Positions 1,529 through 47,240 of a DNA stretch of 47,240 nt are shown here, piece by piece. The translations under genes were made by a program, and so were the position numbers. The notes under the pieces are model-generated. The model saw only the letters and a program-made list of their open reading frames with translations. It was not told the origin of the DNA and ran no database searches. This stretch comes from Candidatus Edwardsiibacteriota bacterium (GTDB taxonomy: Bacteria; Edwardsbacteria; AC1; EtOH8): the NCBI GenBank assembly GCA_025453955.1, contig JALOPJ010000002.1:1-47240 (forward strand). The letters are read 5' to 3'. Positions within the stretch are counted from its first letter, which is position 1; every line of letters begins with the position of its first letter.

Positions 1529-3522
1529 TCAGCGCAGCGAATCCGGGTTGGCCAGCGAGCCCTTGTCCATCTGCTCGAAGTTCCAGTCGCGCGACTGGAT
1601 GTTGACCGACTGCAGCTTGTGGAGGTCGCAGGTGCGCGCCGGCGCGCTGCCGGTGATGTAGCACTCCTTGCGGGGGTGGGGGCAGGCCGGGGTGGCCAGC
1701 AGGCCGGTCTCGGCGCAGATCGTCAGGTAGCTGATGTTGCCGGGCACGGCGAAATTGGCGACCGGCGCGCCGGCGGTGGCCCGCTTCATGAACTCGATCC
1801 AGATCGGCAGGGCGAAGCCGGCGCCGGTGGCGCCCCGGGAGATGGTCTTCTTCTGGTCGAAGCCCACCCACACGCCGCAGACCAGGTCCGGGGTGAAGCC
1901 GATGAACCAGGCGTCGGTGTAGTCGTTGGTGGTGCCGGTCTTGCCGGCGGCCGGCCGGGTGAAGCCCTGGGCCCGGGCGGCGTAGGCGGTGCCGCCGTTG
2001 AGCACGCTCTCCAGCATGCTGGTGGCGACGTAGGCGGTCTGGGGCGAGAGCGCGCCCGGCTCGGAGTAGGTGCGGGACTCCTCCAGCGCGGCGCCGGAGC
2101 GGTCGGTGATCCTGGTGAACAGCATCGGGTCCACCCGGGTGCCGCGGTTGGGCAGCACGGCGAAGGCGTCCACCATGTCCAGCAGCGAGATGTCGGCGCT
2201 CCCCAGCGCCAGCGACAGCACCGCCGGCAGCGGCGTCTTGATGCCCATGCGGCGGGCGTACTTGACCACCGTGCCGGGTCCGACTTTCTGGATCAGCTTG
2301 ACCGCCACCAGGTTCTTGGACAGCGCCAGCGCCTTGCGCAGCGACATCGGGCCGTCGAACGTGCCGTCGTAGTTCTGGGGGTACCAGGGCAGGCCCGAGC
2401 CGTCGTCCTCGATCACGATCGGCGCGTCGATGATCACGTCCCCCGGCGAGAAGCCGTTGTCGACCGCGGCGATGTAGACGAAGGGCTTGAAGGTGGACCC
2501 GGCCTGGCGCCGCGACTGCACCGCGCGGTTGAACTTGCTCATCAGGTAGTCGCGGCCGCCGATCATCGCCAGCACGTGGCCGGTGCGCGGGTCCATCGCC
2601 ACCAGCGCGTCCTGGATGTAGGGCGTGTTGACCACGCCCTCGCCGCCGCGGGGCGGCTTGGCGTCCTTCTTGGCCGGCGAGAGCTTGTGGGCCTCCTCCA
2701 GCTTGACCATCCAGTCCTCCGACGCCTGGTTGGCGATCCGCTGCAGCCGCAGGTCCAGCGTGGAGTAGACGGACATCTGGCCCTGGTAGATGGCGTTGGC
2801 GCCGTAGCGCGCCTCCAGGTGCTTGCGGATCTCCTCCACGAAGTAGGGGGCGTCGTTGAGCCGCAGCTCCCGGGGCTTGAGCACCAGCGGCAGCGCCTGG
2901 GCCGCCCGGCATTGCTCGCGGGTGATGGCGCCGGTCTGGGCCATGGCGTCCAGCACGGTGTTGCGCCGCTTGATGGCGGCCTGGGGCCGGTCGTACGGCG
3001 AGTACAGGGAGGGGCCGCGCGGCATGCCGGCCAGCAGCGCGCACTGCGCCAGCGCCAGGCTGTCGACGTGGGTGCCGAAGTACATCTGGGCGGCGGTCTC
3101 CACGCCGTAGGCGCCGTGGCCGTAGTTGATCTGGTTGAAGTACAGCTCCAGGATCTTGTCCTTGGGGTACATTGGCCGCGGCGGCGTAGCCCAGCAGGTC
3201 GATCCCCATGTGGCTGCGGAACCCGCGGTCCTCGATGGCGATGGTGGCGTCGACCAGGTGCTTGGGAACGCGTGACAGCGGGACCACGATCCGGTGCTCC
3301 TCGGCGAACTCGTAGACCAGCTCGCCGGAACGGTCGAACACCTTGGTGCCCTGCTTGGGCTGGAGGTCCTCCAGTGACTTGGTGGAGGGCATGCCGCGGC
3401 TGTAGAAGCTGAAGGCGCCGGCGGCCAGCCCCAGGCAGAACACCAGGCCGTACAGCCCCCAGCGCAGCAGCCTGCGGACCAGCGGCGGCGGCGAGAACGT
3501 CGGTTTGAATGGCAGCTTCATT
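1529..3522 (-). pseudogene. Class A penicillin-binding protein (PBP1A-type), interrupted by a deletion/frameshift near 3172-3185
   Basis: N-terminal GT51 start (MKLPFKPTF...IAIEDRGFRSHMGIDLLGYAAAA) and remainder (MYPKDKILELYFNQINYGHGAYGVETAA...transpeptidase AGSTFKPF, AAGKTGTTNDYTDAWFIGF) lie in different frames; the conserved GGSTITQQ segment is absent. Confidence 0.8.
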
Positions 3523-3652
3523 CGTCCCTGTCGGTTGAACCCATCCGTCAATTGTAGCGCGAACCGCGCCCCGAGTCAAGAGAAAACCCGGTCGGTGACC
3601 GGTTCGGTTTTACGCGTTGACAACCGGCCGCCGAAGGGATATACTGGTGGCC

Positions 3653-4387
3653 ATGGAGCGTATTCCCGCCGCCGAGATCTGGGATGCCCGTCATTCCCTG
3701 GCCGAGCCCCACCCCGTCGACCGGGCGCTGGTCGGCACGGACATCTTCTGGGACCTGCTGGGCGACGTCCGCGGCAAACGGGTGCTGGACCTCGGCTGCG
3801 GCCAGGGCGACCTGGCGGTGCTGCTGGCGCGGGCCGGCGCCCGGGTGACGGCGGTCGACGGGTCGGCCGGCGCCATCGTGGCGGCCCGGCGCCAGGCGGC
3901 ATTCAACGGCGTGCGGGGCATCCGGTTCGTCCGGGCCGACGCCGTCGCGCTCGGCACGCTGGGGCAATTCGACCTGGTCACCGGCCGGTACATCCTGCAC
4001 CACATCGAGCCGTTCGCGGATTTCGTCCCGCTGCTGCGATGCGCGCTGGCACCCGGCGGCCGGGCGGTGTTCATCGAGAACTCGGCGCGCAATCCCCTGC
4101 TGATGCTGGCGCGGCGGCACCTGGTGGGCCGGTTCGGCCTGCCCCGCCGCGGCGACGGCAGGGAGCGGCCGTTTTCCGACCGCGAGAGCGCGCTGCTGCG
4201 GCGGGAGTTCGGGCGGGTGACGGTCGTCGCGCCGGAGCTGGTGCTGTTCCGGCTGGTGGCCCGCTACTTCCTGCGGCGGCACGAACGGGCCGCGTCCCTG
4301 TTCAACCGGCTGGACCGGCTGTGCTACCGTTACTTCACCGCCCTGCGGCGCTGGGGGTATCTGCAAGTGATCGCGATCGACGCCTGA
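3653..4387 (+). CDS. Class I SAM-dependent methyltransferase
   Basis: VLDLGCGQGDLAVLLARAGARVTAVDGS motif I; downstream methyltransferase-like motifs. Confidence 0.85.
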   Translation: MERIPAAEIWDARHSLAEPHPVDRALVGTDIFWDLLGDVRGKRVLDLGCGQGDLAVLLARAGARVTAVDGSAGAIVAARRQAAFNGVRGIRFVRADAVALGTLGQFDLVTGRYILHHIEPFADFVPLLRCALAPGGRAVFIENSARNPLLMLARRHLVGRFGLPRRGDGRERPFSDRESALLRREFGRVTVVAPELVLFRLVARYFLRRHERAASLFNRLDRLCYRYFTALRRWGYLQVIAIDA

Positions 4388-5416: not shown

Positions 5417-6079
5417 TCAGGCGGCGGCGATCGGACCAGTCACCGTCGGGCAGTCCAGCAGCTTGCCGGCCAGCCAGCGGAACACCCAGGCCACGCCGTT
5501 GAAGAGGTGCAGCGACAGCAGGCCCAGCATCAGGCCGATGGCGGCCAGCAGCCAGGCCTGGCCGGCCGTGGCGACGGTGGCGTCGAACACCTCGAACGGC
5601 ACCCGGGTATACAGGACGGGCGCCAGCAGCAGGGCGCCGGAGAGGGCCCCCAGGGTGACGACGATCACGAACGACGCCAGTCCCAGCGGGAACTTCAGCA
5701 GCAGGAACAGGAAGCCCTTCCAGCTGACAGGGCTGGCCAGCCGCGACTTCAGCCAGGGCCAGGGGCGGCGGTCGCTGCCCCAGTGCTGCACCGGCTCCGT
5801 CCCGACCTGCCGTCCCAGCAGCCAGCGCGATTGCAGCCGCTCGAAGCCGATGAACAGCCGCCAGCAGAGGAAGACCAGCACCAGCAGCGGCAGGCCGACC
5901 GCGACGATGTACAGGCCGAACCCCAGCGCCAGGCCGGTCACCAGGAACACGAAGTAGAACAGCCCGAGCGGGAAGGCCAGCGCCAGGTAGGCCAGGTTGC
6001 GGTAGGTCGCCGGGCGGAACAGGACCCCGAAGACGCTCAGGACCTGCCTGCCGGGTCGTCGTGCGAACAGTGAGGCCAT
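5417..6079 (-). CDS. Membrane protein resembling the standalone 'putative sensor' domain
   Basis: 221 aa; repeated TM hairpins (RNLAYLALAFPLGLFYFVFLVTGLALGFGL; WKGFLFLLLKFPLGLASFVIVVTLGAL) as in Sensor-type N-terminal domains. Confidence 0.55.
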   Translation of the reverse strand: MASLFARRPGRQVLSVFGVLFRPATYRNLAYLALAFPLGLFYFVFLVTGLALGFGLYIVAVGLPLLVLVFLCWRLFIGFERLQSRWLLGRQVGTEPVQHWGSDRRPWPWLKSRLASPVSWKGFLFLLLKFPLGLASFVIVVTLGALSGALLLAPVLYTRVPFEVFDATVATAGQAWLLAAIGLMLGLLSLHLFNGVAWVFRWLAGKLLDCPTVTGPIAAA

Positions 6080-6247
6080 CGTACTATCTCCGTATGATTT
6101 GGTTTCATGGATAGTACGTCGGCGGGGCGATGATTGTTTCACACCATCACCATCGGGCCGCGGTGATAGGGTATTGCGGAATCATCATTTTTATGGTATC
6201 GTTATGTCGTTGAATACGATCGGCAGTGGAACGAAAAGGATCCAGCA

Positions 6248-6919
6248 TTGCGCAAGTACTTCTTGTCCATCATGTTGTCGGCCGCGGCACTGGCGGTCCC
6301 GCTGGCTGCCGCCGAAGATTGCCCGTTCGGGCAGGTGAACGACCATGAGCCCGGCAAATGCGGCTTATACGAGGACACGGACCGCGACAGCATCTGCGAC
6401 CTTTCGCAGAAGGCGGCGCCCGTAGAGGCTGCCCGAACAGCCGTCGCCGTCCCCGTGCCGGAACCCGTGCGCCAGGCATCGCCGGGAAACCAAGACCCGG
6501 TGAAGACCATCACAACTGCACCCATCCCGGCACCCGACCCGCCTGCCCCCGCGCCGGCGCCCGCACGGCCGTCGCCGCTGCGCCAGCGCTACCCCGTGTG
6601 GCAGGTCTTCATCGCGGTAGTGGCGCTGGCCGCCGTCACGGAACTGCTCTGCGCGCGGCACCAGCGGCTGACGCTGCCGCTGCAGGCCGCGTGGAACTGG
6701 GCGCTGGCGCTGTCCTTCCTGCTGACCGCGGCCACCGGCGTGGTCTACGCCTACCCGGCGCTGCTGGCGCGGTTCTCCTTCAACCTGGGAACGTGGCACT
6801 CGGTCCCGGGCCTCGTCATGATCGCGGCCGGGGCGTACCACACGGTCCGCCGCTTCGGATGTCTGTGGCGGGGAGCGGGATCATGGTTCTCCCGCCGGGG
6901 CGGGTCCTGCGGCGGGTAA
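6248..6919 (+). CDS. Exported/membrane protein with Cys-rich Ca-binding-like N-terminus and cytochrome b-like/DUF4405-like TM region
   Basis: Signal peptide; EDCPFGQVNDHEPGKCGLYEDTDRDSICDLSQ; Pro/Ala linker; TM helices with conserved-looking His (WHSVPGLVMIAAGAYHTVRR). Confidence 0.5.
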   Translation: MRKYFLSIMLSAAALAVPLAAAEDCPFGQVNDHEPGKCGLYEDTDRDSICDLSQKAAPVEAARTAVAVPVPEPVRQASPGNQDPVKTITTAPIPAPDPPAPAPAPARPSPLRQRYPVWQVFIAVVALAAVTELLCARHQRLTLPLQAAWNWALALSFLLTAATGVVYAYPALLARFSFNLGTWHSVPGLVMIAAGAYHTVRRFGCLWRGAGSWFSRRGGSCGG

Positions 6920-6941
6920 CCGGCCGCGTCCCAGTCACGTG

Positions 6942-6969
6942 AGCTCCGAGCATCAGCCCGGAGCTTTTT
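6942..6969 (+). terminator. Intrinsic terminator
   Basis: AGCTCCG...CGGAGCTTTTT. Confidence 0.55.
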
Positions 6970-7057
6970 CACTTGTCTTTTCCCCCTTGATATGGTATCG
7001 TATTTATTCGGAACCGTCGTCGAATCGGTGATGACTTGTCGTTACAGGAGGTGCGCC

Positions 7058-9631
7058 ATGCCCAAGTTCCTGAAGATATCCCTGATCGTTCTGGCCATCG
7101 TCGTCGTGCTGCTGGCCGCGGCCGGGATCGCCCTCAAGCTGATGTTCCCGCCGGCCAAGCTGCGGGCGGTGCTGATGCCGAGGATCGAGCAGGCGGTGGG
7201 CCGCCCGGTGCGGATCGACCGCTTCTCCCTCAAGGTGTTCACCGGGCTGGGCGTGGAGCTGTCCGGCATCGAGCTGGCCAACGCCCGGGGGTTCGACCAG
7301 CGGCCGATGGCGGCGATCGACGCGGTGGTGCTGAAGGTCAACCTGCTGGCGCTGCTGAAGGGCCAGCTGGCGGTCTCCAGCCTGGCCATCGACCGGCCCC
7401 GGGTGCTGATCGAGAAGGACATCACCGGATCGTTCAACTTCGACGACCTGGTCAAGCCGGCCGCGCCGGGCGCCGCGCCCGCGGCCGCGCCCGGCACGAT
7501 GCCGGTGAGCTTCGCCGTGCAGTCGTTCCGGATCGCCGACGGCTCGTTCGAGTTCAACGACCGGCAGGGCCGGATGACGGTCGTCGCCAACGGGATCGAG
7601 GACAAGCTGTCGCTCGACGCCGACCGCTCGCTGTCGCGCATCCGGACCAGGGGCGAGCTCACGGTCCGCGAGATCAGCGTCTCGATGGCGGCGCTCAGGC
7701 TGACCAAGCTGTTCGCCAGCGTCAGGCACGACGTGGCGGTGGACCTGCCGGGCAAGACGGTGACAATCCACGAGCTGACCGTCGCGCCGCAGGGCATCGC
7801 CCTGACCCTGGCCGGCACGGTCAAGGAATTCGACACCAAGCCGGTGCTGGACCTGGCGCTCAAGACCACCAGCATCGACATGAAGCAGGCCTTCGCCGCC
7901 ATCCCGCGGGAGTTCCGGTCGCAGGCCAGGGACATCCAGGCCACCGGCAAGCTGGAGCTGGGCCTGACGGTCACCGGCCGGGTCGACCCCCAGGACCCGA
8001 AATCCAAGCCCAAGGTCGACGGTTTCGTCGGCCTGCGCGACATCGGCGTCAAGTACACCGCGCTGCCCAAGGCGGTGACCGGGATCAACGGCGACGTCCG
8101 CTTCAGCGAGGACGACCTCGACGTCAAGTCGCTGTCCGCCAGGCTGGGCAGCGCCGGCTTCAACCTGTCGTGCCTGGTGCGGCATTTCGAGGATCCCCAC
8201 GTCAAGGCGGCCTTCAAGGGCGATCTCGACCTGGGCGAGATCAAGGACTACGTGCCGCTGGAGGAGGGCACCCAGCTGTCCGGCACCATCGACGCCGACT
8301 TCAAGGCCGAGGGCAGGGTGCGGGACATCAACTCGTTCAACATGGACGGGAAGATCAAACTGGCGGGCATCGGCGCCACCACGCCGGCGCTGCTGAAGCC
8401 GGTGAGCGACTGCGGCGGGCTGGTGCTGCTCAACAAGAACCTGATCGATATCAGGGACGTCTCCTGCAGGATCGGGAGGTCCTCGCTGGCGTTCAACGGC
8501 CAGGTCAAGAATTTCCTCAGCCTGGTGCCGGAACAACCCGCGGCCAAGGGCAAGAAGGCCGTGGCGCTGCCGAAACAAGGAAAGGCCCAGCTTGCCTTCG
8601 CGCTGACCTCGCCGCTGTTGGACCTCGACGAGATGCTTCCCCCGCCGCCCAAGGGCGGCGGGAAATCCGAAACCGCAAATCCGAAATCCCAAACGGCAAC
8701 GCAGCCGGCAATGATGCCCCTGCCCGACATGGTGATGAACGGCACGGTGCGGGTGGCCAAGATCAAGTACCTGAAGATGGACTTCGACAACCTGGCCGGC
8801 ACCCTGGCGATGAGCGACCGCAAGCTGTCGCTCGTCGGCGACGTCGCGGTCTACTCGGGCAAGGTCTCGGGCAACGTCTGGGCCGACCTCGATGACATGG
8901 AGAAGATCGCCTACCGGCTGGGTGCCGACGCGTCGAAGCTGGAGGCCAACGATTTCCTCTCGGCGCTGACGCCGTTCAAGGACCGGCTGTTCACCAAGCT
9001 GGACGTGACCGGCGAGTTCTCCGGCCTGGCGCCGGACACCGTGCTGGTCAAGCGGACGCTGAAGGGCCAGGGCAAGGCCGCCAGCGGCGAGGGCAAGCTG
9101 GTCAACTACCAGGTGCTGGCCGACGTGCTGGCCTTCTGCAAGCTGGGCGACACCAAGGAGGTCTCGTTCCGCTCGCTGTCGATGGGCTTCCGCATCGCCG
9201 ACGAGAAGGTCTACCTGGACGACCTGCTGATGACCAGCAAGTTCGGGGACATCAACCTGTCGGGCAACTCCAGCTTCACCGGGTACCTCGACTACCGGGC
9301 CTCGATCAAGCTGACGAAAGAGGAGTCCGACAGGATGAAGGGCAAGGCCGGCAACGCGGCCGCGCTGTTCACCGACAAGGACGGCCGGGTGGTGCTGGAC
9401 CTGCTGGTGAAGGGCCAGTCGCCCAAGCCGGCGGTGTCGTGGGACACGCAGATGGCGCAGGCCCGGCTGAAAGGCAAGGCCCAGGAGGAGATCGACAAGG
9501 TCAAGGCCGAGGCCCAGGCCAGGATCGACCAGGAGCGGAAGGCGCTGGAGGAGAAGGCCAAGAAGGAGGCCGACGAGGCGGCCAAGAAGGCGGCGGACGC
9601 GTTGAAGGGGTTGTTCAAGAAAAAACCATAA
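7058..9631 (+). CDS. AsmA family protein
   Basis: MPKFLKISLIVLAIVVVLLAAAGIALKLMFPPAKLRAVLMPRIEQAVGRPVRIDRFSLKVFTGLGVELSGIELAN; SD ggaggtgcgcc upstream; AsmA-like C-terminal repeats. Confidence 0.85.
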   Translation: MPKFLKISLIVLAIVVVLLAAAGIALKLMFPPAKLRAVLMPRIEQAVGRPVRIDRFSLKVFTGLGVELSGIELANARGFDQRPMAAIDAVVLKVNLLALLKGQLAVSSLAIDRPRVLIEKDITGSFNFDDLVKPAAPGAAPAAAPGTMPVSFAVQSFRIADGSFEFNDRQGRMTVVANGIEDKLSLDADRSLSRIRTRGELTVREISVSMAALRLTKLFASVRHDVAVDLPGKTVTIHELTVAPQGIALTLAGTVKEFDTKPVLDLALKTTSIDMKQAFAAIPREFRSQARDIQATGKLELGLTVTGRVDPQDPKSKPKVDGFVGLRDIGVKYTALPKAVTGINGDVRFSEDDLDVKSLSARLGSAGFNLSCLVRHFEDPHVKAAFKGDLDLGEIKDYVPLEEGTQLSGTIDADFKAEGRVRDINSFNMDGKIKLAGIGATTPALLKPVSDCGGLVLLNKNLIDIRDVSCRIGRSSLAFNGQVKNFLSLVPEQPAAKGKKAVALPKQGKAQLAFALTSPLLDLDEMLPPPPKGGGKSETANPKSQTATQPAMMPLPDMVMNGTVRVAKIKYLKMDFDNLAGTLAMSDRKLSLVGDVAVYSGKVSGNVWADLDDMEKIAYRLGADASKLEANDFLSALTPFKDRLFTKLDVTGEFSGLAPDTVLVKRTLKGQGKAASGEGKLVNYQVLADVLAFCKLGDTKEVSFRSLSMGFRIADEKVYLDDLLMTSKFGDINLSGNSSFTGYLDYRASIKLTKEESDRMKGKAGNAAALFTDKDGRVVLDLLVKGQSPKPAVSWDTQMAQARLKGKAQEEIDKVKAEAQARIDQERKALEEKAKKEADEAAKKAADALKGLFKKKP
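8652..8700 (+). repeat. AT-richer 'AAATCCGAAA(T/A)CC' micro-repeat inserted in frame in the AsmA-family gene
   Basis: gggaaatccgaaaccgcaaatccgaaatcccaaacggc, encoding GKSETANPKSQTA; composition unlike surrounding codons. Confidence 0.55.
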
Positions 9632-41453: not shown

Positions 41454-41488
41454 GGGCGCGGCGCGACCGCGAACGACAGGAGGGGACG

Positions 41489-44400
41489 ATGGAGAAACAG
41501 GAACTGCTGCGCCGGGTGCTGGACCGGCTGAACCAGGTCACCGGGTCGTCCGAGCCGGTGGCGGACGCCGCGCTGGAACCGGCGGTGTTCCGGCGGCTGG
41601 ACCAGACCGAGAAGATCGTCGGCGCCATCCGGCAGTACCTGCCCAAGCGGGTGATCGACAAGATCCTGCTGAACCCCGACGGCGTCAAGGTGGAGGGCGA
41701 GCGCCGGCCGGTGACCGTGCTGTTCGGCGACCTGTCGGGCTTCACCGCCATGTCCGAGACCCTGGACCCGGAGCAGGTGGTGGAGGTGGTCAACCAGTAC
41801 TTCGACACCATGGTGGAGATCGCCGAGCGCTACGGCGGCCACATCGACAAGTTCATGGGCGACGCCCTGATGGTGCTGTTCGGCGCGCCGGTGGTGCACG
41901 AGGACGACCCGCTGCGGGCCTGCCTGGCCGCCGTCGAGATGCTGGAGGCCATGGACCGGTTCAGCGCCGAGCGCAAGATGGACCTGGCGATGAGCATCGG
42001 CCTCAACACCGGCGAGGTGGTGGCGCTCAACGTCGGCTCCAAGGGCCGGATGGAGTACACCGTGATCGGCGACGGCGTCAACCTGGCGGCCCGGCTGGAG
42101 AAGGTGGCCACCGCCCGGCAGTGCGTGATCGGGGAGAACACCTACCGCCAGGTCAAGGGCAAGATCCGGCTCCAGAAGCTCAAGCCGGTGATGGTCAAGG
42201 GGAAGTCCAAGCCCCAGAACGTCTACCTGATCCTGGGGCGGGCGGAGACGGCCGAGACCGCCGCCGGCCTGCGGGCCGGCTCGATCCCGATGGTCGGCCG
42301 GATGGCCGAGATGGACGCGGTGCGCGCGGCCGTCGCCAAGGCCAAGGACGGCGCCGGGCAGGTGGTGGCCATCACCGGCGGCCCGGGGCTGGGGAAATCG
42401 CGGCTGGCCAAGGAGCTGGAGCTGCTGGCCCGAGACGAGAAGTTCGGTTTCGCCAAGGGCAAGTGCTACTCCTACGCCGCCGGCGTCGCCTACCTGCCGT
42501 TCCTGCGGCAGCTGCAGCTGCTGCTGGGGGTCCAGGACAAGGACGCGCCCGGCAGGAAGAGGGAGAAGCTGGTGGAGAAGCTGCAGGCGCTCGACCTGGC
42601 GGACTTCGAGCCGTTCCTGGGCTCGCTGCTGGGGATATCGTACCCCGAGATCGCCGACCTGGACCCGGAAAAGCGCAAGCGCAGGACCTTCGACGGTTTC
42701 ACCGGCCTGTTCCGCAAGGAAGCGGGCCGGCGGCCGCTGGCGCTGGCGTTCGAGGACCTGCAGTGGGCCGACTCGCTGACGCTGGAGCTGCTGGAGCACC
42801 TGGTCGACGCGGTGGCGGACCAGCCGGTGCTGGTCTGCTGCGACTACCGGCCGGAGCTGGCGCTGCCGTTCGTCGCCCGGCCGCACTGCACCAGCATCGT
42901 GCTGGCGCCCCTCGACCAGCGCGAGGTGTTCAAGATGGTGTCGGCGCTGGCCGGCACGGCCGACGTGGCCGACCAGGTGCTGGGCAAGGTGGCCGAACGC
43001 ACCGAGGGCAACCCCCTGTTCATCGAGGAGATCACCCGGCACCTGCTGTCGCGGCGGCTGGTCAAGCGGGAGGGCGAGAACCTGGTCGCGTCGAAGCGCT
43101 TCGGGACGATGGCGCTGCCCACCACGGTGGCCGGCGTGGTGCTGGGCCGGATCGACAAGCTGTCCGAGGAGCTGCGCCGCACCCTGCAGTACGCGGCGGT
43201 GATCGGCAAGGAGTTCGACCACGAGCTGCTGGCGCACATCACCAGGACGCCGGCCGACCAGCTGCGGCCGCGGCTGGACAACCTGGAGCACTTCGAGGGC
43301 CTGCTCTACTCCAAGGAGGTCGAGGGCAGGCGGTACTACCAGTTCCACTCCACCACCACCCAGGAGGCCGCCTACGGCACCCTGCTGAAGGGGCGGCGGA
43401 AGGAGCTGCACGGCACCGTGGCGCTGACCTACGAGCGCGACTACAAGGACGACCTGGAGCCGTGGCTGGAGGACCTGGCGCACCACTTCTTCCACAGCAC
43501 CTACGAGGACAAGGCGGTCCAGTATTTACATGCGGCCGGAGACAAGGCCCGGGGGCTGTACGCCAACGAGACGGCGATCGAGTTCTACCAGAAGGGTCGT
43601 GACCTCTGCAAGAAGCAAAAAGTGACGCAGCAAACACAGATGCAATTGGCTGAGTTCTACGGAGCACAAGGTGCTGTGCTTCGCCTCATCGGGGAGCGGG
43701 AACGAGCGTTAAAGAACTTCGTCGCGGCGGCTAAGATCAGTCAGAAGTACAATGAAACGACCGTTTCGAACAAGTACGTCATCGAAACGGGCATCTCCTA
43801 CGATATGTTGGGGGAACAACGCCGGGCGGTGCAGTTGTGGAAGAAAACCTGCGAAGCGGCGATCGCAGCGCACGACCTGTTCGCGGCGGCCTCGACGTTG
43901 AATCTCCAAGGAATCGTTGACCTCCGAAATACGGACATCGACAAAGCGATCCAGTTTTTCCAGAGATCGGCAGAGATGTTTGTTAAGCTGGGAGAAAAGA
44001 AGCAACTGTCGCGAGTTTATGGGAACCTTGGCCAGGCATATGATAGTAGCGGTCAGACCGAGAAAGCTATCGAGCAGTACCAAGCAGCTCTCGAAGCGGC
44101 AACTGCGTGCAACTATCTCGAGGGCGCTGCTATGGTAAACAACGATCTTGGGAACAGTTTTCTTGCATTGGGTGATATTGAGCGTGCGGAAGAACACCTG
44201 ATGGAAAGCCTGCGGCGCTCAAAACAAATAGGCGATAAGCGTGTTGAGGGATTATCATCCGGGAGCATGGGTATTCTCTACGCCATGACCGGTCGATATC
44301 GGGAAAGCATGGAATCATTCACGACATCCTTGACCGCGGCCGAGGAGACGAATGATCCTCGCCAGATAGTAATGATGAACATCAACATCGGGTGCGTTCA

Positions 44401-45271
44401 TCAGACCTGGGGCGACGCGGGGAAAGCGATCGCGCATCACAACCGTGCCTTTGAACTGTCAAAACAATTCGGCGACCTACCCAATGAGATCGAAAGCCGA
44501 AGAAACATAGGCATCGACTTGCTGATCAACGCGCGATATCGGGAGGCATTGGAGGAACAGAACACCGCCTTAACTGAAGCGCAGAAGGTCGGTGATCCCA
44601 GAATCGAAGCTTACGTCAGTGCGTGTGTTGGATTGTTGCAGGTGATCGTGGGGCAACCCAGCGAGGCGGAGACGACCTTACAGAAGGCTCTGGATCTTGC
44701 ACGCCAAGTCGGCGATCCTGAAGTGATACTTGCTGCCGCGCGAGGCCGAATCGAGTTGCATATCACGCGAGGCGAGTTCGATGAGGCCTTGCAGCATATC
44801 GAACGGGCCGGGAGACTCGCTGATGAGTCTCAGAATATGCGGGAGAAGGCATATATCGACCTATCCCACGCCATCGTGCTGATGCGGCAGGGCGATCTGG
44901 AAGCGATGAGCGGACCGCTGGCCGAGGTGCTCGACATCAATCATGAGATTGAGGATAAGGTGTTGCAATGCCGTGCGGCCTTGGTCGGGGCTGACCGGGC
45001 CATCGGGCTCAAATCGTTCCCCGAAGCCGAGCGGTATCTTGACGAGGCCGGTGAACTTTCCCGGTCGCTCACGATGCCGGATCTGCTGTGGCGGGTCTAT
45101 CTTGCCAAAGGACAGCTGTATCAACGACAGGGCTTGGCCGATGGTGCCAAGGAACAGCTTGCCCTGGCGCGACTGACCGTGGAGGACATGAAACCGCAGG
45201 TGCCGGAGGGAATGTGGGAGGGCTTTATCAACAACACCGAGCGAAAAATGGTGTATCAAACTCAAGAGTAA
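41489..45271 (+). CDS. Class III nucleotide cyclase - AAA/STAND ATPase - TPR protein
   Basis: VLFGDLSGFTAMSETLDPEQVVEVVNQYFDTM...DKFMGDALMVLFGAP...YTVIGDGVNLAARLE; ITGGPGLGKSRLAKEL; LALAFEDLQWAD; multiple C-terminal TPRs. Confidence 0.94.
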   Translation: MEKQELLRRVLDRLNQVTGSSEPVADAALEPAVFRRLDQTEKIVGAIRQYLPKRVIDKILLNPDGVKVEGERRPVTVLFGDLSGFTAMSETLDPEQVVEVVNQYFDTMVEIAERYGGHIDKFMGDALMVLFGAPVVHEDDPLRACLAAVEMLEAMDRFSAERKMDLAMSIGLNTGEVVALNVGSKGRMEYTVIGDGVNLAARLEKVATARQCVIGENTYRQVKGKIRLQKLKPVMVKGKSKPQNVYLILGRAETAETAAGLRAGSIPMVGRMAEMDAVRAAVAKAKDGAGQVVAITGGPGLGKSRLAKELELLARDEKFGFAKGKCYSYAAGVAYLPFLRQLQLLLGVQDKDAPGRKREKLVEKLQALDLADFEPFLGSLLGISYPEIADLDPEKRKRRTFDGFTGLFRKEAGRRPLALAFEDLQWADSLTLELLEHLVDAVADQPVLVCCDYRPELALPFVARPHCTSIVLAPLDQREVFKMVSALAGTADVADQVLGKVAERTEGNPLFIEEITRHLLSRRLVKREGENLVASKRFGTMALPTTVAGVVLGRIDKLSEELRRTLQYAAVIGKEFDHELLAHITRTPADQLRPRLDNLEHFEGLLYSKEVEGRRYYQFHSTTTQEAAYGTLLKGRRKELHGTVALTYERDYKDDLEPWLEDLAHHFFHSTYEDKAVQYLHAAGDKARGLYANETAIEFYQKGRDLCKKQKVTQQTQMQLAEFYGAQGAVLRLIGERERALKNFVAAAKISQKYNETTVSNKYVIETGISYDMLGEQRRAVQLWKKTCEAAIAAHDLFAAASTLNLQGIVDLRNTDIDKAIQFFQRSAEMFVKLGEKKQLSRVYGNLGQAYDSSGQTEKAIEQYQAALEAATACNYLEGAAMVNNDLGNSFLALGDIERAEEHLMESLRRSKQIGDKRVEGLSSGSMGILYAMTGRYRESMESFTTSLTAAEETNDPRQIVMMNINIGCVHQTWGDAGKAIAHHNRAFELSKQFGDLPNEIESRRNIGIDLLINARYREALEEQNTALTEAQKVGDPRIEAYVSACVGLLQVIVGQPSEAETTLQKALDLARQVGDPEVILAAARGRIELHITRGEFDEALQHIERAGRLADESQNMREKAYIDLSHAIVLMRQGDLEAMSGPLAEVLDINHEIEDKVLQCRAALVGADRAIGLKSFPEAERYLDEAGELSRSLTMPDLLWRVYLAKGQLYQRQGLADGAKEQLALARLTVEDMKPQVPEGMWEGFINNTERKMVYQTQE

Positions 45272-45310
45272 CTGAACTATAGCGATTGTTCACAAGATGC
45301 TGAACCATGG

Positions 45311-45429
45311 CATGCGGTCATCTCGATACAGGCCGGTCGTCGAGTGCCCCGCCTGGCCTCGATACGGCTTTCAGCAACTCGGCCAACGGCGGGGCGTATC
45401 GAGACACCGGCCAACTCGATGACCGCATG
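45311..45429. repeat. Long nested inverted repeat (about 119 nt), possible MITE-like or structured RNA element
   Basis: Outer CATGCGGTCATC...GGCCGGT / ACCGGCC...GATGACCGCATG; inner GCCCCGCC TGGCC / GGCCA AC GGCGGGGC. Confidence 0.55.
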
Positions 45430-45464
45430 TAAAGCAGTTTTTACCAAAACGAGGTATAAATAAC

Positions 45465-45489
45465 AAAGGGGCTCTTGCGAACCCTTTGT
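45465..45489. terminator. Terminator-like hairpin
   Basis: CAAAGGG...CCCTTTG. Confidence 0.45.
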
Positions 45490-45500
45490 GCAGCCAGGTA

Positions 45501-45632
45501 TCAATAGAATGTACTGTAAAACGTAGCGCGGCACCGCATCCAGTCCGGATCCATCGGGTCGGTGATCTCTCCGGTGTCTTCCCCCTCGCCGCCCAGCACC
45601 TTGAGCAGTTCTTCCCGGTTCAGCTCTTTCAT
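45501..45632 (-). CDS. Candidate double-glycine-leader peptide (RiPP/bacteriocin-like precursor), 43 aa
   Basis: MKELNREELLKVLGG|EGEDTGEITDPMDPDWMRCRATFYSTFY; L-12, N-11, E-8, L-7, V-4, G-2, G-1 of the GG-leader consensus; GGGG SD 7 nt upstream of the ATG. Confidence 0.5.
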   Translation of the reverse strand: MKELNREELLKVLGGEGEDTGEITDPMDPDWMRCRATFYSTFY

Positions 45633-45701
45633 GTAATCCCCTTCATGTTAATGATAATGGAATTCAAAACAAGTATACAATACCCCCCTGTTGTCAAGTA
45701 A

Positions 45702-45725
45702 AAAAGGCCCCTGACGGGGCCTTTT
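45702..45725. terminator. Bidirectional intrinsic terminator
   Basis: AAAAGGCCCC-TGAC-GGGGCCTTTT. Confidence 0.75.
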
Positions 45726-45748
45726 ACTTTTTTACGACGCGCCGGTCA

Positions 45749-47240
45749 TCATCGGAGTATGGTCATTTTTCGCGTGATCCGCTGGCCGCCGGCGGTCAAC
45801 CGGTAGAAGTAGACGCCCGTGGCGACTGCGCGACCGTCGTCATCGGCGCCGTCCCAGGTTATGCCGTGCTGGCCCGATGGCAATGTATTGCCTCCCAGCG
45901 CCCGGACGCGCCGGCCGCAAATATCGTAGATGTCCAATTCGATCCTGCCGGCCGCGGGGAGGGAGAACCGTATCGTCACGGGACCATTGGCCGGGTTGGG
46001 TCGGCACGGCAGCAGCGCGAACCGGGCGTCCACCCCGCCGGCGGTGGTAACCCGCACCGGTCCGTGCCACACGACGTTGGCCTGGTCGTCCTGGTCGCCC
46101 AGCAGGTAGTAGTAGGTCGAGTTCGCCAGGGCGGTGTTGTCGGTATACTGGTAGGCATGCCCGACCGGCGAGTTCCCCAGGCCGGGGACCTCGGCGATCC
46201 TGGTGAAATCGCGGTCGGGATGCGGCGACCGGTCGATCAGCCACTGGTAGGTGTCGGTCTCGCTGCCGGTGCGCCACGCCAACGCCACGCCGCCCGTCTG
46301 CCACAGCGCCGAGAACTCCGTCAGTTCCACCGCCAGGATGCCGGAGACGCCGCGGGGTTCCAACCCGCTGCGCAGGCCGTTGTCGACCTGATAGTAGTGG
46401 CCGTAGCTGGCCGGGGCCTTGCCGCCCTTGGTCAGCCCGTTGAGGGCGGGGAAGGCGTTCCAGGGATCGTTGCTGGATTCCTGCTGGGCCACGGCCAGGT
46501 AGCGGAACACCCGGGTGGTGTCGTAGGAGCCGATGTAGCTGAACGGCACCTGCAGCTCGGCGTACTCGTAGGTGTTGATGCTGTCGAGGCTGACGTATGC
46601 CGGGTATGAGATCGTCAACGTGTCTGACCACGTACTCCCGTCCCACCGCTTGATGATGTAGTTTGCCCCGTCGTCGACCACGATGCAGAAATCCGGCTGG
46701 AAGTCCTTGCCCGAATCGAAGGTCGACTTTACGCCAGTGCCGTTGTAGTCGACGGTCGTGTCCGCACCGCCGGCGCGGGTGTCCAGGTAGATCAGCAGGT
46801 CGCCGGCGGTGCGCCAGTCGCAGCGGCTGTAGCCGAAGAACACGGCACCGTCATCCCAGGTGCAGAACAGGGTGTCGGTATTTCTGACCTCGATCAGCTC
46901 GGTGCTGATGAAATCGCGCACGCAGCCGTAGCTGTATCCCACCCCCAGGGAGTGGGGCGTCACCCGATCACCGTACACCACCACCCGGGGCTCGTTCCCC
47001 AGCTCGCTCCAGCGCCGGGGATTCGACTCGTCGCGGGCCTTCATGGCCAGGATCAGGGTGTCGCCGGGCGGCAGCCCCAGCATGTACCTGGTCTCGGCGG
47101 CGCCGGCGGACTTGGGTCCCCAGGTCTGGTAGTAGACATGCCCGGAGTCGCGGTAGTCGGTCTCGCTGCTCAGACGGCCCAGGTCGGAGGCGCCCTCGTT
47201 GTACCAGCTGTACTTCAGCTGGTAGGCCCGGGTCGACTCG
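45749..47240 (-). CDS. Secreted protein with C-terminal FlgD-Ig/T9SS-like sorting domain; N-terminus beyond the right edge
   Basis: FALLPCRPNPANGPVTIRFSLPAAGRIELDIYDICGRRVRALGGNTLPSGQHGITWDGADDDGRAVATGVYFYRLTAGGQRITRKMTILR; frame stays open to 47240. Confidence 0.8.
   Translation of the reverse strand, partial: ESTRAYQLKYSWYNEGASDLGRLSSETDYRDSGHVYYQTWGPKSAGAAETRYMLGLPPGDTLILAMKARDESNPRRWSELGNEPRVVVYGDRVTPHSLGVGYSYGCVRDFISTELIEVRNTDTLFCTWDDGAVFFGYSRCDWRTAGDLLIYLDTRAGGADTTVDYNGTGVKSTFDSGKDFQPDFCIVVDDGANYIIKRWDGSTWSDTLTISYPAYVSLDSINTYEYAELQVPFSYIGSYDTTRVFRYLAVAQQESSNDPWNAFPALNGLTKGGKAPASYGHYYQVDNGLRSGLEPRGVSGILAVELTEFSALWQTGGVALAWRTGSETDTYQWLIDRSPHPDRDFTRIAEVPGLGNSPVGHAYQYTDNTALANSTYYYLLGDQDDQANVVWHGPVRVTTAGGVDARFALLPCRPNPANGPVTIRFSLPAAGRIELDIYDICGRRVRALGGNTLPSGQHGITWDGADDDGRAVATGVYFYRLTAGGQRITRKMTILR

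Follow-up and report, generated by a model that had tools for sequence, protein, structure and literature searches.

What does a 43-codon reading frame with a double-glycine (GG) leader do in the genome of an uncultured bacterium, and which machinery could export its product? The question is raised by the 47,240-nucleotide stretch analysed here (the window), which makes up all of contig C194 in a metagenome-assembled genome of 2.5 Mb (G000; 211 contigs, 88% complete). On its minus strand, at 45501-45632, lies an unannotated frame whose translation, MKELNREELLKVLGGEGEDTGEITDPMDPDWMRCRATFYSTFY, divides into the leader MKELNREELLKVLGG (codons 1-15, 45588-45632) and a predicted mature core of 28 residues and net charge -5, EGEDTGEITDPMDPDWMRCRATFYSTFY (45504-45587), followed by the stop codon. 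An earlier note, made from the letters of the window, had described this frame and read it as a RiPP precursor or a secreted signalling peptide. As shown below, that interpretation is partly supported: the frame is present as described, it stands out from chance by a leader profile, and of the proposed functions export fares far better than modification.

C39 peptidases read the leader positions L-12, E-8, L-7, V-4, G-2 and G-1 (PMC6363468), every one of which is found in the window leader and in most of its paralogues. The consensus match claimed at -11 fails, the residue there being N and not the usual S. Likewise, the Shine-Dalgarno sequence announced as strong is only moderate (AAGGGG, 45638-45643, minus strand, about 5 nt before the ATG), a clear AGGAG being found in most paralogues. 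The window peptide used as query retrieved five leader relatives in its own genome, and a first leader profile recovered seven members including the window peptide at E<=4e-8; an eighth, C178:3483, scored E 0.1 with this first model and 2.8e-6 with a refined model that included the relatives, and beyond it the profile returned in G000 only pieces of long frames (E>=0.9). The seven paralogues of the window peptide have in common the leader MKELNRxELLxVLGG and carry different, acidic cores; five are arranged in tandem on C178 (L008:14531-15310), one lies on C144 and one stands alone on C178. Ten genomes of a single uncultured phylum, Ca. Edwardsbacteria (UBP2), were compared, and the refined profile found 28 leaders in four of them (G000, G001, G008 and G009), about 20 of these in the three relatives, and none in the remaining six. 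The tBLASTn-type check advised by the earlier note, for homologues with a conserved leader and a variable core, is thereby answered positively. Neither collection of curated families names the peptide: a Pfam search gave nothing near the cut-off, and the best precursor-type match in NCBIfam, induct_EntF, reached 12.1 of 35 bits, below the curated cut-off.

The tiny gene is real and belongs to a family. The window leader compared with the leader of G008 peptide 1 gives pS 0.67 and pN 0.06; for cores that correspond in G008 and G009, pS ranges from 0.36 to 0.80 and pN is about 0.11. Rough as they are over such short stretches, these values, with pN far below pS, point to leaders and cores that are translated, constrained peptides, the leader codons being apparently under purifying selection. 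The C178 array of G000 and the C47 array of G001 agree in the order of their core classes and are flanked by the same genes, for an ABC-2/M1 permease, an ATPase and PEMT. In these flanks the permease is of the ABC-2 type, carries a fused M1 aminopeptidase domain and is accompanied by its ATPase (L008:9495-14057 in G000, L045:4782-9422 in G001). Other GG peptides, in G001 (L046:8572-9772) and G008 (L049:8861-9539), have TPR gene fragments on one or both sides, which gives the impression of an insertion into broken TPR genes.

The earlier note had correctly seen no C39 gene in the window and had proposed a search of the genome for a PCAT/C39 transporter. Such a search succeeds on another contig, C119, where the gene at 5493-7682 encodes a 729-aa C39-ABC protein (PF03412 at 121 bits, PF00664, PF00005) and is directly followed at its 3' side by a HlyD-type gene (HlyD_3). 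Over its whole length the exporter can be aligned with PCAT1 and ComA; the catalytic Cys, His and Asp of its protease fall on those of PCAT1, as expected from an intact peptidase active site. It resembles PCAT1, LahT and ComA (4RY2, 6MPZ, 8HF4) in its C39-TMD-NBD layout and in the leader rule L-12/E-8/L-7/V-4/GG, but it stays below the cut-off of every NCBIfam exporter family among those listed (the nearest being TIGR03796, with 434 of 853 bits). Two of the findings that the earlier note had named as fatal to its reading, namely no conservation in relatives and no C39-type transporter in the genome, are contradicted, because the leader is conserved and the exporter is encoded in the same genome.

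The peptide gene and the exporter gene of G000 lie on different contigs, and the link between them is drawn from the relatives. Among the ten genomes, a full C39-ABC exporter of this kind is encoded only in G000, G001, G008 and G009 (in the last as L058); small single-domain C39 proteins are also present in G003 and G009, and G002 has a marginal match. Peptides and exporter are thus both present in 4/10 genomes and both absent from 6/10, a pattern with a chance of 1 in 210 under an independence that does not hold for these genomes. The informative split falls within genus g4, in which G008 and G009 have both peptides and exporter and G004 and G006 have neither. Moreover, in G008 and G009 three tandem peptide genes adjoin the exporter gene and diverge from it. 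Paralogues, the C39-ABC/HlyD exporter, co-occurrence and adjacency in two relatives together lend strong support to the idea of a secreted GG-leader peptide, and we consider the window peptide very likely to be an exported C39 substrate.

How the gene came to lie where it does is suggested by comparison with the same intergenic site in G001, G003, G004, G005 and G006, which measures 57-76 nt there versus 477 nt in the window (45272-45748). This longer gap contains the peptide unit together with a dispersed palindromic repeat (45311-45429), whose perfect 12-nt arms, 45311-45322 and 45418-45429, are 95 nt apart and of which partial copies occur at C193:8441-8514 and C104:17967; the repeat is possibly a small mobile or REP-like element. 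A plasmid origin of the inserted stretch was considered and dropped, as there was no plasmid match. Given the difference in length, the peptide unit looks like an insertion beside the gene whose product it resembles, that of a large secreted protein. The 3' part of this gene, with FlgD_ig and Por_Secre_tail domains in Pfam, occupies 45749-47240 on the minus strand and is cut by the contig end. On the other side, at 41486-45271 on the plus strand, is the gene of a guanylate cyclase-AAA-TPR protein, a syntenic neighbour for which matches were found in 7/7 family members searched, peptide-bearing or not. A functional link between the peptide and this protein was ruled out, since the latter is encoded by a core gene that relatives without peptides have too.

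Within the insertion, the peptide gene had been placed between a structured repeat and a terminator, whereas terminator-like hairpins in fact stand on both sides: one at 45702-45725, which separates the peptide unit from the adjoining gene and has a T-run on either strand (called on the plus strand, the minus-strand T-run being read from the letters), and one called 3' of the gene at 45484-45469 on the minus strand. These flanking hairpins suggest that the gene is a predicted transcription unit of its own. A TTGACA (45697-45692) and a TATACT (45677-45672) are indeed present upstream on the minus strand, with the short spacing that had been noticed (14 nt); a sigma-70 scan did not call this promoter, and the pair (45672-45697) is kept as a weak candidate.

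The resemblance to the large protein resides in the C-terminal part of the core (45504-45560, minus strand). A motif profile search found the motif PDWMRCRATFYSTFY in exporter-linked peptides, as the tail of three predicted lipoproteins and, internally, as a segment of a secreted protein of about 1200 aa with FlgD_ig/Por_Secre_tail ends, for instance as KWIRGRGTSYSTFYKG in G008. About half of 22 residues are identical between the end of the window core, EITDPMDPDWMRCRATFYSTFY, and that of G008 peptide 2, DIVEPDETDWIRGRGTSYSDFY, and none of 1000 shuffles scored as high as the alignment of the window core with this exporter-linked core over these 22 residues. Against the large proteins, 0/300 shuffles were as good as the window core. 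The gene at 45749-47240 is an orthologue of the motif-bearing large proteins (44-48% identity over about 500 aa), and its own segment is expected some 80-90 residues past the contig end; a copy was not found elsewhere in the G000 assembly, and the segment of the syntenic large gene of G001 falls in an assembly gap. Segments were also read in the loci of G004, G006 and G007, and L127, L129 and L136 gave weak motif matches. One apparent copy, the frame SWVTSRATAYSSYY at L053:8826-8788, was discarded as a wrong frame of a broken large-gene copy.

The lipoproteins, of about 145 aa each, belong to G001, a sister species, and end in the motif as PDWAYCRGISYAAYW and variants. Their genes (L045:2319-2759, 3214-3651 and 3683-4114, minus strand) are paralogous, match no Pfam family and alternate with GG peptide genes; a fourth, broken copy in L045 ends at 1685. 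One lipoprotein tail equals the large-protein segment of G001 at 13/13 residues, and all 10 differences between their coding DNA are synonymous, which indicates that the amino-acid match was kept long after the DNA had diverged. Furthermore, with six orthologues of the large protein aligned, motif peptides and lipoproteins all end exactly at its invariant Lys. G008 peptide 3 occupies the start of a disrupted large-gene copy, where a stop codon replaces this Lys and is followed by an in-frame continuation matching large-protein residues 609-805 (75% identical); it shows one way in which the fusion could have arisen. A strict matching of peptides to the allele of their own genome was tried and found not to be general: the best match is to the own allele only in G001 and for G008 peptide 2, and G009 peptide 2 equals the large protein of G003 at 13/13 residues and that of its own genome at only 9/13.

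The Tyr-rich class to which the window peptide belongs (G000, G008, G009) is one of five core classes shared between species or genera. GHFxGVDGL is found in G000, G001 and G009, DGKKxNPFEP in G000, G001 and G008, and AHSFHEI and MPRRQPVWE in G000 and G001. One precursor of G009 (L052:9593-9766, plus strand) repeats the TGHFxGVDGL core, giving two consecutive copies as in a multi-core precursor. All 27 cores inspected are net acidic (-2 to -9), with 15-42 residues and no conserved Cys. The single Cys to which the earlier note had drawn attention is present in the window core, but relatives have Gly at that position, and most of the Ser/Thr are not conserved either. For the classes other than the Tyr-rich one, no match to the large protein exceeded shuffles, and a search with joined cores for source proteins returned only the peptides themselves.

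From these observations a course of events can be proposed. After translation, the 15-residue leader would be read by the C39 domain of the C119 exporter, a step that is strongly supported. The exporter would very probably cut after the GG and move the acidic core of 28 residues across the inner membrane, the adjacent HlyD-type protein most probably bridging to the outer membrane. Once outside, the core may act via its C-terminal 13-19 residues. That it functions outside the cell appears likely, because two different export signals carry the same C-terminal ending. Its most likely action would be that of a soluble mimic or competitor of the segment, binding either the partner of the segment or else the large protein. 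The remaining core classes (GHFxGVDGL, DGKKxNPFEP, AHSFHEI, MPRRQPVWE) would work through other motifs. The mimicry of the large-protein segment, taken by itself, is credible at somewhat under even chances. Taken as a whole, an exported, acidic, possibly unmodified peptide acting outside the cell by segment mimicry is the best reading of the comparisons made here, and one we lean toward by a little. An extension of this idea, that two routes, C39 peptides and predicted lipoprotein tails, export copies of one segment, that of the segment's several alleles across the phylum the peptides of one genome display more than one, own and foreign, and that these free-standing copies of part of a self protein constitute a surface mimicry system for recognition, competition or inhibition, is offered only as a speculative possibility.

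The same case that shows how a fusion could arise, that of G008 peptide 3 with its large-gene remnant, means that the motif could be a gene-fusion relic rather than a functional mimic: a duplicated leader would have landed on fragments of other genes, leaving functional leaders on incidental cores. The apparent constraint on corresponding cores of G008 and G009 and the conservation of core classes between genera speak against this view, which we hold to be improbable. The same conservation across genera is, together with the shortness of the cores, what an intercellular signal would lead one to expect, exported acidic peptides bearing class-specific C-terminal motifs read by receptors such as TPR regulators. 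The C144 GG peptide and the AAA-TPR-BTAD regulator that comes immediately after it on the same strand (L009:6249-9698, minus strand) make a candidate receptor/regulator pair; in G000 and G008 the exporter has TPR proteins on its flanks, and two further peptides adjoin TPR fragments. This linkage of TPR/AAA regulators is not consistent, however. TPR proteins appear to be common in these genomes, the two that flank the exporter are only 21% alike, the cyclase-AAA-TPR neighbour in the window is retained in peptide-free relatives, and no import permease or two-component pair was consistently linked in the loci read. A pheromone is accordingly rather unlikely, at perhaps one chance out of several.

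Lower still do we rate an antimicrobial function. Class II bacteriocins and microcins were defined here by an antimicrobial core, typically cationic or with a hydrophobic or Gly-rich segment, and an immunity gene. The uniformly acidic cores, devoid of a conserved Cys, sit poorly with this type, even though some class II microcins are acidic; moreover, no recurrent immunity gene lies beside the peptides in the loci read, and the core classes are kept across genera instead of being diversified. The GG leader, the C39 exporter with its HlyD partner and the tandem variants would all suit such peptides, but for a comparable lipoprotein/GG array of Treponema denticola no bactericidal activity was found (PMC11879956). 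Equally doubtful is a RiPP precursor, as the earlier note had it; in this reading an enzyme encoded elsewhere would modify the core, for example by crosslinking Tyr/Trp or esterifying acidic side chains. The genes scanned at peptide and exporter loci included no modification enzyme (a Pfam scan of part of these neighbours gave TPR, PPDK, ADH, M28, PEMT, ABC-2/M1 and others), nor do the core classes have in common any residue pattern that typically marks a modification; with the Cys and most Ser/Thr unconserved as well, the claim is left unsupported. In its favour are cores rich in Asp/Glu with Ser/Thr and aromatics, the two core repeats of the G009 precursor and, in one record, a pinensin-type lanthipeptide precursor (L067:4559-4738) beside a 68%-identical exporter.

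The reading of an exported peptide that acts outside the cell by segment mimicry can be set beside systems already described. In the diderm Synechococcus elongatus, the small GG-motif proteins EbfG1-4 are exported and matured by the C39-ABC exporter PteB; they are not shown as bacteriocins, and are needed for biofilm, a community trait (PMC4997328). Here too there are several small GG-motif proteins, a diderm host and a C39-ABC exporter. The EbfG mature parts are larger (6-7 kDa versus about 2-4 kDa here), their genes form one cluster whereas the window gene is a lone insertion, and the part of that source at hand reports no copying of a secreted-protein segment for EbfG. In T. denticola, lipoprotein genes alternate with genes for GG leaders (bacteriocin-type signal domain) beside the bacteriocin ABC transporter TepA1, and the products are secreted (PMC11879956). 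The G001 array (L045:850-4312) follows the same plan, but the exporter of G001 is on another contig. In addition, the T. denticola proteins are 167-614 residues long, unlike the peptides described here, and the excerpted text of that study mentions no motif common to lipoproteins and GG proteins. Bacteroidota too have tandem GG peptides (L056:9127-9545 and L059:7797-8718), with short acidic cores, a little upstream of 60-63%-identical exporters that belong to the same subfamily; they differ in their longer leaders and unrelated cores, and are without NCBIfam match.

With these results, an uncultured phylum gains a family of exported micropeptides for which an exporter can be named and five core classes distinguished, and which came to light only because small open reading frames had been retained. 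Should the core really be a copy of a large-protein segment, joining a leader to an existing gene fragment would be a route by which new secreted peptides arise. If this is true, a non-killing function of GG peptides would also become directly testable, since the peptide and its putative target are both known sequences.
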